A DNA stretch of 20,307 nt from a virus, in the IMG/VR virus record IMGVR_UViG_3300009104_000150, positions 1 to 20,307 of that record; one strand, 5' to 3'. The position numbers and the translations under genes are program-made. Within the stretch, counting starts at the first letter, position 1. The number at the start of each line of letters is the position of its first letter. Shown here piece after piece: positions 1 through 19,823 of the stretch. A model generated the notes under the pieces. The model saw nothing but the letters and a program-made list of their open reading frames with translations, made no database searches and had not been told where the DNA came from.

Positions 1-839
1 ATTTTAACATTTGAATAACCACCAACATCTGATACAACGGAAAACGTTTTACATCCATTTGTTGCATTTGCATCAGTTACTAATCCAGACAATGTAATAA
101 TATTTCCATTTGCAATTTCTTTACCTAATATTCCATCTCCAAATTGTACTTCATATAATCCATCGTCTTGAGCATCTAAGAAATAATGTTTAGAAGTAGA
201 ATTAACAGTAGTAATATCATTTGCTAAATCATAGGCAAAAGAAGCAGATTCCGTTGCAGATGTTTGTACTGTTACAGTTAATGTGTCTGTATCAATATTT
301 GCATTAGGAAGTAAATATCTCTGGTCAACATCGGCAGTTGCAGCCGTGTACTTATAAGAAATTGGTATTCCTTGAGTTAATTCTACATTAGATACTGTAT
401 ATACAAGATTCGCATTAATATTAACTGCATGTGAATTTGCTGTACACCAAACATAATTAACACCATCTACATCTCCCTGAAATTGTGTAAATCTGGGGAT
501 AGTTATAACTGCAGGGTCATCAGGTGGTGTAATTGTAAGATCAACATAAGCTTTTGATCCTTTTGCTGAACGTGGTAAATATCCTAAATGTTTCGCTCTA
601 GCAACTACAGAATTTCTAAGTACGGCTGAATCCAAGAACATTTCGTTTGCAATCATATTTGCATAATATGAATTATAATGTGTATTATATGCTAATACAT
701 CAAGAAGAACATCAAAGGATGATCCCCTAAAATTATAACCAACGAATTCTTCTTGATTCTTTAAAAATCCTATCAGATTTTCTTTAATTTGAGTAAAATC
801 TAATTCTGATACATTAAGCTTTCCTTCTGTACTTGCCAT
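1..839 (-). CDS. gp6: Baseplate wedge protein gp6 (partial, 3' end beyond left edge)
   Basis: The frame opens at ATG 839-837 and runs off the left edge with no stop, giving the first 279 codons of a protein that has about 660 residues in T4. The N-terminus contains the typical gp6 signature: LDFTQIKENLIGFLKNQ near residues 13-29, then GSSFDVLLDVLAYNTHYN, NEMFLDSAVLRNSVV and AKHLGYLPRS. gp6 forms the inner ring of the baseplate wedge and binds gp25 and gp53 (known for T4). The gene is last in the visible leftward baseplate operon, 6 bp after gp25. The likely ribosome binding sequence (GAAAGGA) lies in the last codons of gp25, so translation is probably coupled. Family assignment is strong from motif order and neighbours. 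Confidence 0.93.
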   Translation of the reverse strand, partial: MASTEGKLNVSELDFTQIKENLIGFLKNQEEFVGYNFRGSSFDVLLDVLAYNTHYNSYYANMIANEMFLDSAVLRNSVVARAKHLGYLPRSAKGSKAYVDLTITPPDDPAVITIPRFTQFQGDVDGVNYVWCTANSHAVNINANLVYTVSNVELTQGIPISYKYTAATADVDQRYLLPNANIDTDTLTVTVQTSATESASFAYDLANDITTVNSTSKHYFLDAQDDGLYEVQFGDGILGKEIANGNIITLSGLVTDANATNGCKTFSVVSDVGGYSNVK

Positions 840-17453: not shown

Positions 17454-17678
17454 TCACAAAGGAAGTTTGGCAGAAGAAGATATTAAATGTAAATCCTCAG
17501 CTTCTTCTTGAATATTCTGTTTTAATTTTCCATTAATCATTTTACCGGCAGTTTCGGGCTCTAATTTATTTTTTTCACAATAATGTAAAACTGCATCAAT
17601 ATAAGACATATTAGTACTACGTACCAATTTTTCAATATTTTCTGAAAACAATATAGAATTGTTTAATCTTGTACTCAT
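17454..17678 (-). CDS. gp33: Late-transcription coactivator gp33-like
   Basis: A 74-residue protein with the pattern IEKLVRSTNMSYIDAVLHYC (15-34) and LEPETAGKMINGKLKQNIQE, as in the short gp33 homologues of marine T4-like phages. T4 gp33 (112 residues) binds the RNA polymerase beta flap and links the late sigma gp55 to the sliding clamp. The order gp33 then gp32 fits T4-like genomes (T4 has gp59 between them). The start has no clear ribosome binding sequence and comes 8 bp after the two-TM gene. Its stop is 10 bp before the gp32 -35 box. The call rests on motif resemblance and position. Confidence 0.75.
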   Translation of the reverse strand: MSTRLNNSILFSENIEKLVRSTNMSYIDAVLHYCEKNKLEPETAGKMINGKLKQNIQEEAEDLHLISSSAKLPL

Positions 17679-18280: not shown

Positions 18281-18508
18281 TTACTGTTTCTCTACAAATT
18301 CGTAAAGTTCAGCTGCCTTCTTCTTAATATCCTCAATGGTATAAGATTCTGGCTGAAGTTCTTTAAACAACTCCATAGTTGCAACTCCATTTTCCTTTGC
18401 AAGATCCCATGCATTGTAAATAAAGTCTTGTTCGCGTTGTTCTTGTTCTTGGAGATAACTTTGTGCCATCTCTAAAAGTCTAAATCTTAATTCATATGGA
18501 TTAGACAT
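18281..18508 (-). CDS. Conserved small phage protein (75 aa), function unknown
   Basis: Start taken at ATG 18508-18506, which has AAAGGA six bases upstream; a longer frame from 18580 would run back through the tmRNA and is rejected. The product is an acidic, helical protein: MSNPYELRFRLLEMAQSYLQ, then a Gln/Glu-rich stretch and a C-terminal YTIEDIKKKAAELYEFV. I recall similar N-terminal NPYE-(L/I)-R proteins among marine T4-like phages, without a known role. Two helices joined by a loop look likely. It is the first protein gene after the tmRNA in the leftward operon that ends with gp33 and gp32. Confidence 0.75.
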   Translation of the reverse strand: MSNPYELRFRLLEMAQSYLQEQEQREQDFIYNAWDLAKENGVATMELFKELQPESYTIEDIKKKAAELYEFVEKQ

Positions 18509-18534: not shown

Positions 18535-18706
18535 GTTGTGTGTAGCTGACCGTGCTTCTGTTCCCAAGTGACGGCCACAACTCGGCTATATCTTACGCAG
18601 CAATAGCGTATGCATATGCAGGTTCATAATCGGAATTATTTGCGATTATATTTAAACGAAACCTCTTTTTCTGACATTACAACCAATCGAATTCTATTAC
18701 AGCCCC
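18535..18706 (-). ncRNA. tmRNA coding piece (5' half, tag frame, pseudoknot)
   Basis: Begins GGGGCTG at 18706, followed by a D-region AGAATTCGATTGG like the conserved tmRNA GGxTTCGAC stretch, then TCAGAAA (18674-18668) for the P2 helix. Only 24 nt separate P2 from the resume codon, with no room for a normal PK1. After the tag stop, TAGC (18588-18585) pairs with GCTA (18546-18543) and GGCCGT (18576-18571) with ACGGTC (18553-18548). GTTGT (18581-18577) can pair with ACAAC (18539-18535) as a pseudoknot. A CA-rich run ends the piece. The 3' boundary is estimated. Confidence 0.85.
18593..18643 (-). other. tmRNA tag reading frame (ANNSDYEPAYAYAIAA, stop)
   Basis: The frame starts at resume codon GCA (18643-18641), preceded by TC as in many tmRNAs, and ends with TAA (18595-18593). 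It encodes 16 residues, ANNSDYEPAYAYAIAA. The AN start and AIAA end match the general pattern of tmRNA degradation tags (E. coli ANDENYALAA), where the terminal hydrophobic residue and AA are read by ClpXP. The acidic DYE stretch and the repeated AYAY are unlike the tags I remember from bacteria. Confidence 0.88.
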
Positions 18707-18715
18707 AGCAATGAA

Positions 18716-18802
18716 TCACATAAAACCAAAATACACGACTGCGTATATGATTACACACCAAACCAATAAAGATAGTAAAGTCCATTTTACCCAATGTTCC
18801 AT
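18716..18802 (-). CDS. Possible 28-aa single-span membrane peptide within the tmRNA intervening segment
   Basis: ATG at 18802-18800 follows AAGGA with a 5-nt gap, and TGA lies at 18718-18716, ten bases before the coding piece begins. The product starts MEHWVKWTLL and continues as a hydrophobic run to YFGFM, which predicts one transmembrane helix of about 20 residues with the charges at the N-terminus. The first A of the ribosome binding sequence is also the terminal A of the tmRNA CCA. The frame fills 87 of the 105 intervening nucleotides. Translation is unproven; codon choice and the strong start site are in its favour, its shortness against it. Confidence 0.5.
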   Translation of the reverse strand: MEHWVKWTLLSLLVWCVIIYAVVYFGFM

Positions 18803-18811
18803 ATGATTCCT

Positions 18812-18860
18812 TGGTGGAGCTGACCGGAATCGCACCGGTGTCTTAACTGCTATTCAGAAA
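18812..18860 (-). ncRNA. tmRNA acceptor piece (T arm, acceptor strand, CCA)
   Basis: Minus strand, 5' to 3': a P2 strand TTTCTGA (18860-18854), a linker, T stem ACCGG (18839-18835), a 7-nt loop TGCGATT, T stem CCGGT (18827-18823), acceptor CAGCTCC (18822-18816), discriminator A and encoded CCA ending at 18812. The five T-stem pairs are perfect. The loop has G where nearly all tRNAs have U55. The 5' end is not defined and at least 11 nt overlap the last codons and stop of the exonuclease gene, so this gene and the RNA share sequence. Confidence 0.87.
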
Positions 18861-19542
18861 CATCAACAGTTTCATTATTATTTAGTTCATATAAATTTTT
18901 AGCTTTCCATATTGTATCAATCCAATTATTACGGTGTTCAACAAATAATTGTGGAACCTCTTCATCAACAGCAATAATAATTACTATTTGAGAAACGGGA
19001 ATATTTGTCAACTCTTCGTATGCTACCGCATAAAAGGATCCTTGTGCAAAATAATTTTCACACCATGCTTTTCTTTTTAATTTATTACTTGTCTTATAAT
19101 CTATTACAGATAATGTACCATCAAATTCAGCAATTAGATCAGTTCTTCCTGCTAAACCAAAATGATCAGAATATAATGCTAATTCTACTCCATGTATATT
19201 ATCTATTCTTTCAAGGTATGGTTCAATACTCTTGAATAATTCGACAATATTAGGTGTTTGTCCGTCAAGATATCCTTCTTCATTTTTGATATAGGACTCA
19301 CAGACAGAATGTACGCTTGTTCCTCTACGGGAAGCCTTTGTCGATATTTTGTTCGCTTCGGTTTCTCCAACACGCTTTCGCCACTCAAGTATTGAAGTTT
19401 TGTTGAGCTCACCGAGGACAGTTGTGATTGATGGATATGATTCACCTTCAGGTGTAACATAGTGTCTCTTCCCATTGTGATATTCAGTTCTCATACCAAA
19501 CGACAACTCTGGTCGATTGGCAAGATGTACAAAATTTTTCAT
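18850..19542 (-). CDS. PD-(D/E)XK exonuclease (RecB/MGME1-like)
   Basis: A 230-residue protein with the ordered motifs of the PDDEXK exonuclease group: YPSITTVLG (36-44), RGTSVHSVCE with H78 and E82, GRTDLIAEF with D135, VIDYKTS with D148 and K150, and QGSFYAVAYEE (Q167, Y171). These match single-strand exonucleases of the RecB-nuclease/MGME1 type that are widespread in marine T4-like phages. Likely roles are DNA end processing in replication or recombination, or host DNA breakdown. The start overlaps the FmdB-type gene stop as ATGA. The 3' end shares sequence with the tmRNA acceptor piece. Confidence 0.85.
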   Translation of the reverse strand: MKNFVHLANRPELSFGMRTEYHNGKRHYVTPEGESYPSITTVLGELNKTSILEWRKRVGETEANKISTKASRRGTSVHSVCESYIKNEEGYLDGQTPNIVELFKSIEPYLERIDNIHGVELALYSDHFGLAGRTDLIAEFDGTLSVIDYKTSNKLKRKAWCENYFAQGSFYAVAYEELTNIPVSQIVIIIAVDEEVPQLFVEHRNNWIDTIWKAKNLYELNNNETVDVSE

Positions 19543-19823
19543 ATAGTACTATTAGGATGTTTACTTTTAATATCTGCTAATCTATCTTTAAGTTGACCAA
19601 CTTCTTTAGGTTTATTAAAATGTTTTGTTTTAATATTATCATAAGCAAATAAAGGAACACCAATTATTTGTTCAACTCTACCACCACACTTAGTAAACAT
19701 GTGTTTAGTCTGTTGTATTTGTTGTTCACATGGCATTTCAGTAGGAGCATCGCGGTCTGCAATTTTTAAATTCTCCTCAAATGTATGTCCACATTCTGAA
19801 CATTTATAATCATACGTTGGCAT
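19539..19823 (-). CDS. FmdB-type zinc ribbon protein
   Basis: A 94-residue protein beginning MPTYDYKCSECGHTFEE, the standard FmdB/CxxC zinc-ribbon start (C8, C11), with the second ligand pair likely C32 and C46 (MPCEQ and FTKCGG). The N-terminal ribbon is followed by a basic tail (KTKHFNKPKEVGQLKDRLAD). Bacterial FmdB proteins are called regulators, but the phage versions have no proven role. Its ATG overlaps the upstream gene by 14 bp and its TGA overlaps the exonuclease ATG, so the three are translated as a coupled set. Confidence 0.85.
   Translation of the reverse strand: MPTYDYKCSECGHTFEENLKIADRDAPTEMPCEQQIQQTKHMFTKCGGRVEQIIGVPLFAYDNIKTKHFNKPKEVGQLKDRLADIKSKHPNSTI

Follow-up and report, generated by a model that had tools for sequence, protein, structure and literature searches.

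The window analysed here is a virus record of 20,307 bp taken at its full length and represents part of the genome of a T4-like aquatic phage; a phage source had been assumed in the first-pass annotation and is borne out. A permuted tmRNA was found on the minus strand at 18873-18593, where the RF04321 covariance model matches over model positions 1-213 with 83.1 bits against a gathering cut-off of 47. Its tRNA-like 3' piece (18812..18873) is closed by an encoded CTCCACCA at 18819-18812, and its 5' or mRNA-like piece (18593..18706) starts with the acceptor strand GGGG at 18706 and includes the tag frame ANNSDYEPAYAYAIAA with its stop (18643-18593), these limits being taken from the RF04321 alignment and the sequence. 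Both the tag frame and a G-U third acceptor-stem pair (GGGG/CTCC), by which permuted tmRNAs are recognized, are thus present. Between the two pieces lies an intervening segment (ITS) of 105 nt, running from CCA to the 5' acceptor strand (18707..18811, as parsed from the alignment), which is predicted from the RF04321 alignment not to be part of the mature tmRNA. ARAGORN did not report a tmRNA at 18873-18593 in the window despite the 83-bit match, and phage permuted tmRNAs may therefore be under-annotated.

The gene just upstream of the tmRNA (18850..19542, minus strand) encodes a PD-(D/E)XK exonuclease (phrog_298, E=4.5e-71; PF12705), while the next gene downstream (18281..18508, minus strand) encodes a small conserved protein, MSNPYELRFRLLEMAQSY..., with homologues downstream of the tmRNA in relatives. 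Further away on the same strand, a small protein at 17454-17678 has an SSAKLPL end resembling the clamp-binding C-terminal tail of the T4 gp33 late coactivator. Phages Melnitz and Mosig likewise have an annotated late-transcription gene after the tmRNA. The protein encoded at 19539-19823 on the minus strand (MPTYDYKCSECGHTFEENLK...) is a zinc-ribbon protein that appears FmdB-like by inspection.

A micro-ORF of 28 codons followed by TGA (MEHWVKWTLLSLLVWCVIIYAVVYFGFM) occupies 18716..18802 on the minus strand and is confined entirely to the excised ITS. The Shine-Dalgarno (SD) sequence AAGGA (18808..18812) has as its first base the last A of CCA and is separated from the ATG by five bases (ATCAT), an SD/ATG geometry that is conserved in relatives. 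The TGA at 18718-18716 lies 9 nt ahead of the 5' acceptor strand, shortly before the predicted RNase P site. The first-pass annotation had described this frame, without naming its strand, with the SD starting on the last CCA base, which proved exact in every detail, and had placed it in a tmRNA segment that must be removed, in agreement with the position of the ORF between CCA and GGGG in the RF04321 match. It had also called the product a single-span membrane peptide; one hydrophobic span was indeed found, with a best 17-residue Kyte-Doolittle mean of 2.6. We predict with good confidence that the peptide is located in the host inner membrane and would guess at envelope or protease modulation during infection as its target. 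Profile searches with the peptide gave no significant match in PHROGs (best phrog_7358, E=0.037) and nothing above the cut-off in Pfam, and tblastn of the peptide and of the ITS-ORF families F1, F6 and F8 in 50,697 phage records gave 0 matches, as did blastn of the tmRNA.

The neighbouring exonuclease gene served as the bait for collecting relatives, and 80 viral contigs (IMG/VR) were obtained in this way with no condition set on the ITS. The RF04321 match was confirmed, with a score over the cut-off, for 35 of the 41 records chosen as representatives. A total of 46 distinct complete ITS were found in these exonuclease-fetched contigs, the window included, and 34 of them have an ORF no shorter than 25 aa that begins 7-17 nt past CCA. 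Nine others (ITS of 58 nt) hold a truncated form of the ORF and the remaining three (ITS of 15, 25 and 33 nt) hold none. Later starts are also possible, as in Melnitz (CCA+19) and in one further locus, L616 (CCA+20). Frame-breaking indels beside an intact tmRNA had been named beforehand as grounds for rejecting the frame; the ORF is indeed truncated in the group with the 58-nt ITS and absent from L128, L130, L133, L137 and L171, all with an intact tmRNA, which indicates that the tmRNA can do without the gene, and not that the gene is non-coding. Processing at CCA had further been expected to trim the SD. This holds in the window, by one base, but is not conserved, as the SD begins on the last CCA base in just 17 of the 78 scored ORF-bearing ITS among the matches listed; many relatives have one more A ahead of the SD, so that AAGGA starts directly after CCA and lies entirely inside the ITS.

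A wider set was assembled by independent pattern scans, in which an ITS of predefined length was sought between a tRNA-like end and a 5' acceptor strand. The first pattern scan (CCA-AGGA-ATG) was too loose and most of its matches were fortuitous; no fewer than five loci that it contributed (L003, L035, L065, L087 and L094) were retained in the later set, which leaves a small ascertainment bias. Tandem tRNAs, in which a tRNA T-arm is mistaken for the 5' piece, were cut down by requiring at least six of the seven acceptor pairs, and TTG starts were left out of the ORF calls because they are too frequent. Among the matches listed, 80 of 173 distinct ITS of 75-205 nt fit an ORF between CCA and GGGG (ATG at CCA+5..20, ORF of at least 20 aa, stop 0-30 nt before GGGG), whereas dinucleotide shuffles would give 6.1 and the reverse complement gives 1; many of the ITS are close relatives, and this count and those below are therefore of sequences and not of independent origins. 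In a smaller set that preceded the last two pattern scans behind this count, 56 of 146 ITS of at least 75 nt among the matches listed combine an SD and an ATG with an ORF of 20 aa or more, where dinucleotide shuffles would yield 1.85. Of these 56 SD-led ORFs, 49 are membrane-like (0.22 expected). The stops fall mostly at -1 (the TGA of a TTGAT/GGGG motif) and -9 of the cleavage site, and the ITS-ORF sequences form about 19 crude clusters among the matches listed.

Selection on the reading frame was assessed by pairwise pN/pS against permutation of alignment columns. The alignment of related phages, a check proposed in the first-pass annotation, gave for the family of the window (F3, n=6) a kept frame and a synonymous bias, with a pN/pS of 0.53 (P=0.0066) for the ORF and 0.58 (P=0.013) for the interior codons. 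Family F1 (...YDFR, n=31), which looks related to F3 by inspection only (MEK..., Y-x-x-x-Y-F-G), gave 0.37 (P=0.003) and a modest 0.61 (P=0.047) for the interior alone; F4 (0.40, P=0.003) and F6 (0.34, P=0.007) behave likewise. The value for the whole ORF of F2 (0.27, P=0.07) is not significant, nor is that of F5 (0.77), a family of 56 aa that overlaps the tmRNA body; the frame of F5 is also broken in close relatives and F5 is accordingly not claimed as coding. A frame of 56-59 aa running from the ITS start through the 5' acceptor and the D-like part was observed in L182, L185, L189, L191 and L199, where it ends just ahead of the tag frame; its pN/pS is near the null expectation and it is broken in sister contigs with a 58-nt ITS.

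Host tmRNAs served as controls. No SD-led ORF of at least 20 aa was found in 42 parsed alphaproteobacterial host tmRNAs (50 loci examined), the ITS of which are mostly 7-51 nt long. Cellular contigs with an ITS of 85-115 nt had no membrane ORF except for four marine MAG contigs (L450, L451, L459 and L461), which were rejected as cellular cases on account of their phage-type neighbours and are likely to be misbinned phage contigs. Three strong phage-type permuted tmRNA matches were also observed in a Flavobacteriales MAG, likely on contaminating phage contigs.

An open frame arising by chance in an AT-rich, structurally constrained spacer RNA, with no peptide made, would account for an ORF that is short, dispensable and sometimes truncated. 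We consider this very improbable in view of the excess of ORFs over shuffles and reverse complement, the codon bias, the ORFs of 50-60 aa that fit the slot and the lack of any such ORF in the 42 host ITS. The micro-ORF in the window is thus very probably coding, with a reading frame under selection, and it is probable, although somewhat less firmly so, that it is a gene in the tmRNA spacer translated from the precursor. The earlier proposal that one transcript could be used either as mRNA or as tmRNA precursor gains support from the frame conservation, the synonymous bias and the start geometry in relatives.

The cargo of the spacer is not always a membrane peptide, as longer ITS encode soluble proteins of 47-62 aa. 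A family of basic ITS proteins of 50-57 aa, mostly ending in ...HFNKDWDKDLWD, was observed in L718, L720-L722, L730, L735, L738 and L160, and represents a cytosolic alternative cargo of the same slot. Soluble ITS ORFs, such as the Cys-containing MKNRYTALCPTCFIRFQWIKDNGLSKHKCLS, were also observed in the phage contigs L605, L608, L598, L614 and L243, some of them extending into the tmRNA body.

The ITS was found to vary independently of its surroundings. L128 and the window are 97% identical in their tmRNA halves and only 22% identical in the ITS, with the ORF absent from the former and present in the latter. The exonucleases of L259 and L419 are 91% identical and their ITS 12%, whereas L125 and L259 are 96-97% identical in the tRNA-like piece and ITS, with exonucleases that are 41% identical. 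On an exonuclease tree of 193 rows, a quick FastTree of a gene that may itself recombine, the absence of the ORF requires 21 changes, and strongly supported branches force at least 13. The ITS is, by these comparisons, an exchangeable slot that is swapped precisely, in the manner of a cassette, with ORFs gained and lost between near-identical tmRNA halves.

The two ends of the ITS are predicted to pair with each other. The 5' strand of this helix (18796..18809, minus strand) includes part of the SD and the start codon, and the 3' strand (18713..18726, minus strand) includes the last sense codons, the stop and the following TTC. Pairing was found in 95.5% of the helix cells in 22 distinct ORF-bearing sequences of the same register (ATG at CCA+9), compared with 35-53% for slid versions. 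Double-sided changes occur in 37 helix cells of these 22 sequences against 12.9 in shuffled data (0 of 500 as high), and both pair orientations (A-U/U-A and G-C/C-G) were seen at three helix positions. In the window fold (z=-4.74), the helix has 14 bp and lies beside the acceptor stem and a pairing of CCA with the UUG of the ITS 3' end. In these models both the SD and the start codon pair with the ITS 3' end, forming a covarying helix that lengthens the acceptor stem. Folding of the growing transcript showed that addition of the ITS 3' end lowers SD accessibility in most of the 21 representatives, from 0.52 to 0.22 in the window; exceptions were observed in L221, L691 and L616, which hold near 0.4-0.5, and in L228, which drops early.

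With the SD and start codon paired in this way, translation would probably take place on the nascent or unfolded precursor, and RNA folding is better supported as a switch than the trimming of the SD by cleavage at CCA. The peptide would be made from the precursor mostly at this stage, until synthesis of the ITS 3' end locks the SD and AUG in the helix extending the acceptor stem. Later cleavage would free the tmRNA halves and end translation from that transcript, and each precursor would yield at most a few copies of the peptide and then one tmRNA. That translation is limited to the unfolded precursor is, from the folding models, a proposition to which we give an even chance.

The same helix is open to a simpler reading, in which the gene is real but the helix is a processing feature only, and the ORF occupies spare transcribed space and is translated at a low rate with no regulatory tie. 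End-to-end hairpins are also formed by 231 of the 251 ORF-less ITS among the matches listed, so that the helix may have a role in processing only and cover the SD incidentally; it is probably an older, processing-related feature that the ORF shares. The SD of Melnitz lies outside the helix core with the ORF still open, and ORFs are freely gained and lost, both of which fit this reading. On the other hand, the start region (-9 to +3) is at least half paired with the last 32 nt in 77 of the 80 ORF-bearing ITS among the matches listed, against 94 of 400 shuffled, and we place this explanation a little short of an even chance.

A tighter coupling could also be imagined, in which a ribosome on the ITS opens the pairing between CCA and leader and controls RNase P cleavage, promoting or delaying tmRNA maturation. 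Pairing of the 5' leader with the 3' RCCA slows bacterial RNase P (PMC9433436), and a ribosome on the ITS might therefore also affect maturation. The CCA:UUG pairing in the window fold and the clustering of stops at positions -1 and -9 relative to the cleavage site would suit such a switch. Phages that lack the ORF presumably complete tmRNA maturation regardless, and we regard the switch as rather unlikely.

The excised ITS might instead be the mRNA, since cleavage at CCA and by RNase P would release a minimal message of about 105 nt with the SD at or beside its 5' end and the stop beside its 3' end. Such short RNA fragments usually decay fast, and the start region of the free ITS is largely paired in most representatives, which together make this improbable. 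Translation from the precursor is the reading that we retain. Its broadest form, with the spacer as a general slot for swappable microproteins in T4-like aquatic phages and ribosome entry that competes with, and times, tmRNA folding and RNase P cleavage, is speculative and we would not expect it to hold; if true, the dose of the membrane peptide would be tied to the production of the ribosome-rescue RNA.

To judge from sequence comparison, the excised tmRNA segment of a large group of T4-like water phages bears a tiny gene that usually encodes a one-helix membrane peptide, and a single small RNA gene appears to yield two products. The spacers of RNAs that undergo processing are commonly regarded as waste. 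Nevertheless, roughly half of the longer spacers in phage tmRNAs fit a small protein gene, almost to the base between the processing sites, and these genes go unannotated even in Melnitz, a cultured phage. They add a hidden set of phage microproteins, offer a reason for the strong length variation of the phage permuted tmRNA spacer and make competition between translation and maturation of one RNA directly testable.

Dual-function RNAs such as SgrS/SgrT and RNAIII likewise combine an RNA function and a small peptide in one transcript; there the peptide frame lies inside the functional RNA, whereas in the window it lies in the discarded part. The kinetic control resembles that of the MS2 maturation gene, the start site of which is open only until the RNA folds, although here it is predicted from partial-transcript folding only.

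The permuted two-piece tmRNA of the window has the same gene form as those described in the marine Kyanoviridae-type phages Melnitz (a Methylophilales phage), Mosig and HTVC008M (Pelagibacter phages), and the neighbours are also alike, with a PD-(D/E)XK nuclease and a late-transcription accessory gene in Mosig and a late-transcription coactivator in Melnitz. In the available part of that report (PMC9004378) ssrA figures solely as an RNA gene, and no CDS is annotated at this place in the Melnitz record. The 142-nt ITS of Melnitz (MZ577097), the tmRNA of which is the same in four isolates, contains GGAG and an unannotated ORF, MFKWLSKTRLVVITRDYF... (MFKWLSKTRLVVITRDYFRERNRKADAKIPKYLSGTRSVYD...), at 46096-46218, in a region annotated only as SsrA. 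The frame continues into the 5' piece, and we treat it as a lead to a further case, not a proven one; no qualifying ITS ORF was found in Mosig and HTVC008M. The open-licence literature, including the accessible portion of a 2025 survey (PMC11915505), yielded no account of protein genes located in the tmRNA permutation spacer. As far as that portion goes, the survey describes homing endonuclease ORFs in group I introns of tmRNA, which are likewise protein genes in a segment removed from the precursor. Those ORFs reside in a self-splicing intron of the T-loop, whereas the ORF in the window resides in the permutation spacer between CCA and GGGG, with no intron. The same portion lists one tRNA gene (an intact tRNA-Ala) and one repeat in permuted intervening sequences (PMC11915505). 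The tRNA-Ala is also an extra gene in the same spacer, but it is an RNA gene in one genome, whereas the genes described here are protein genes in many phages.
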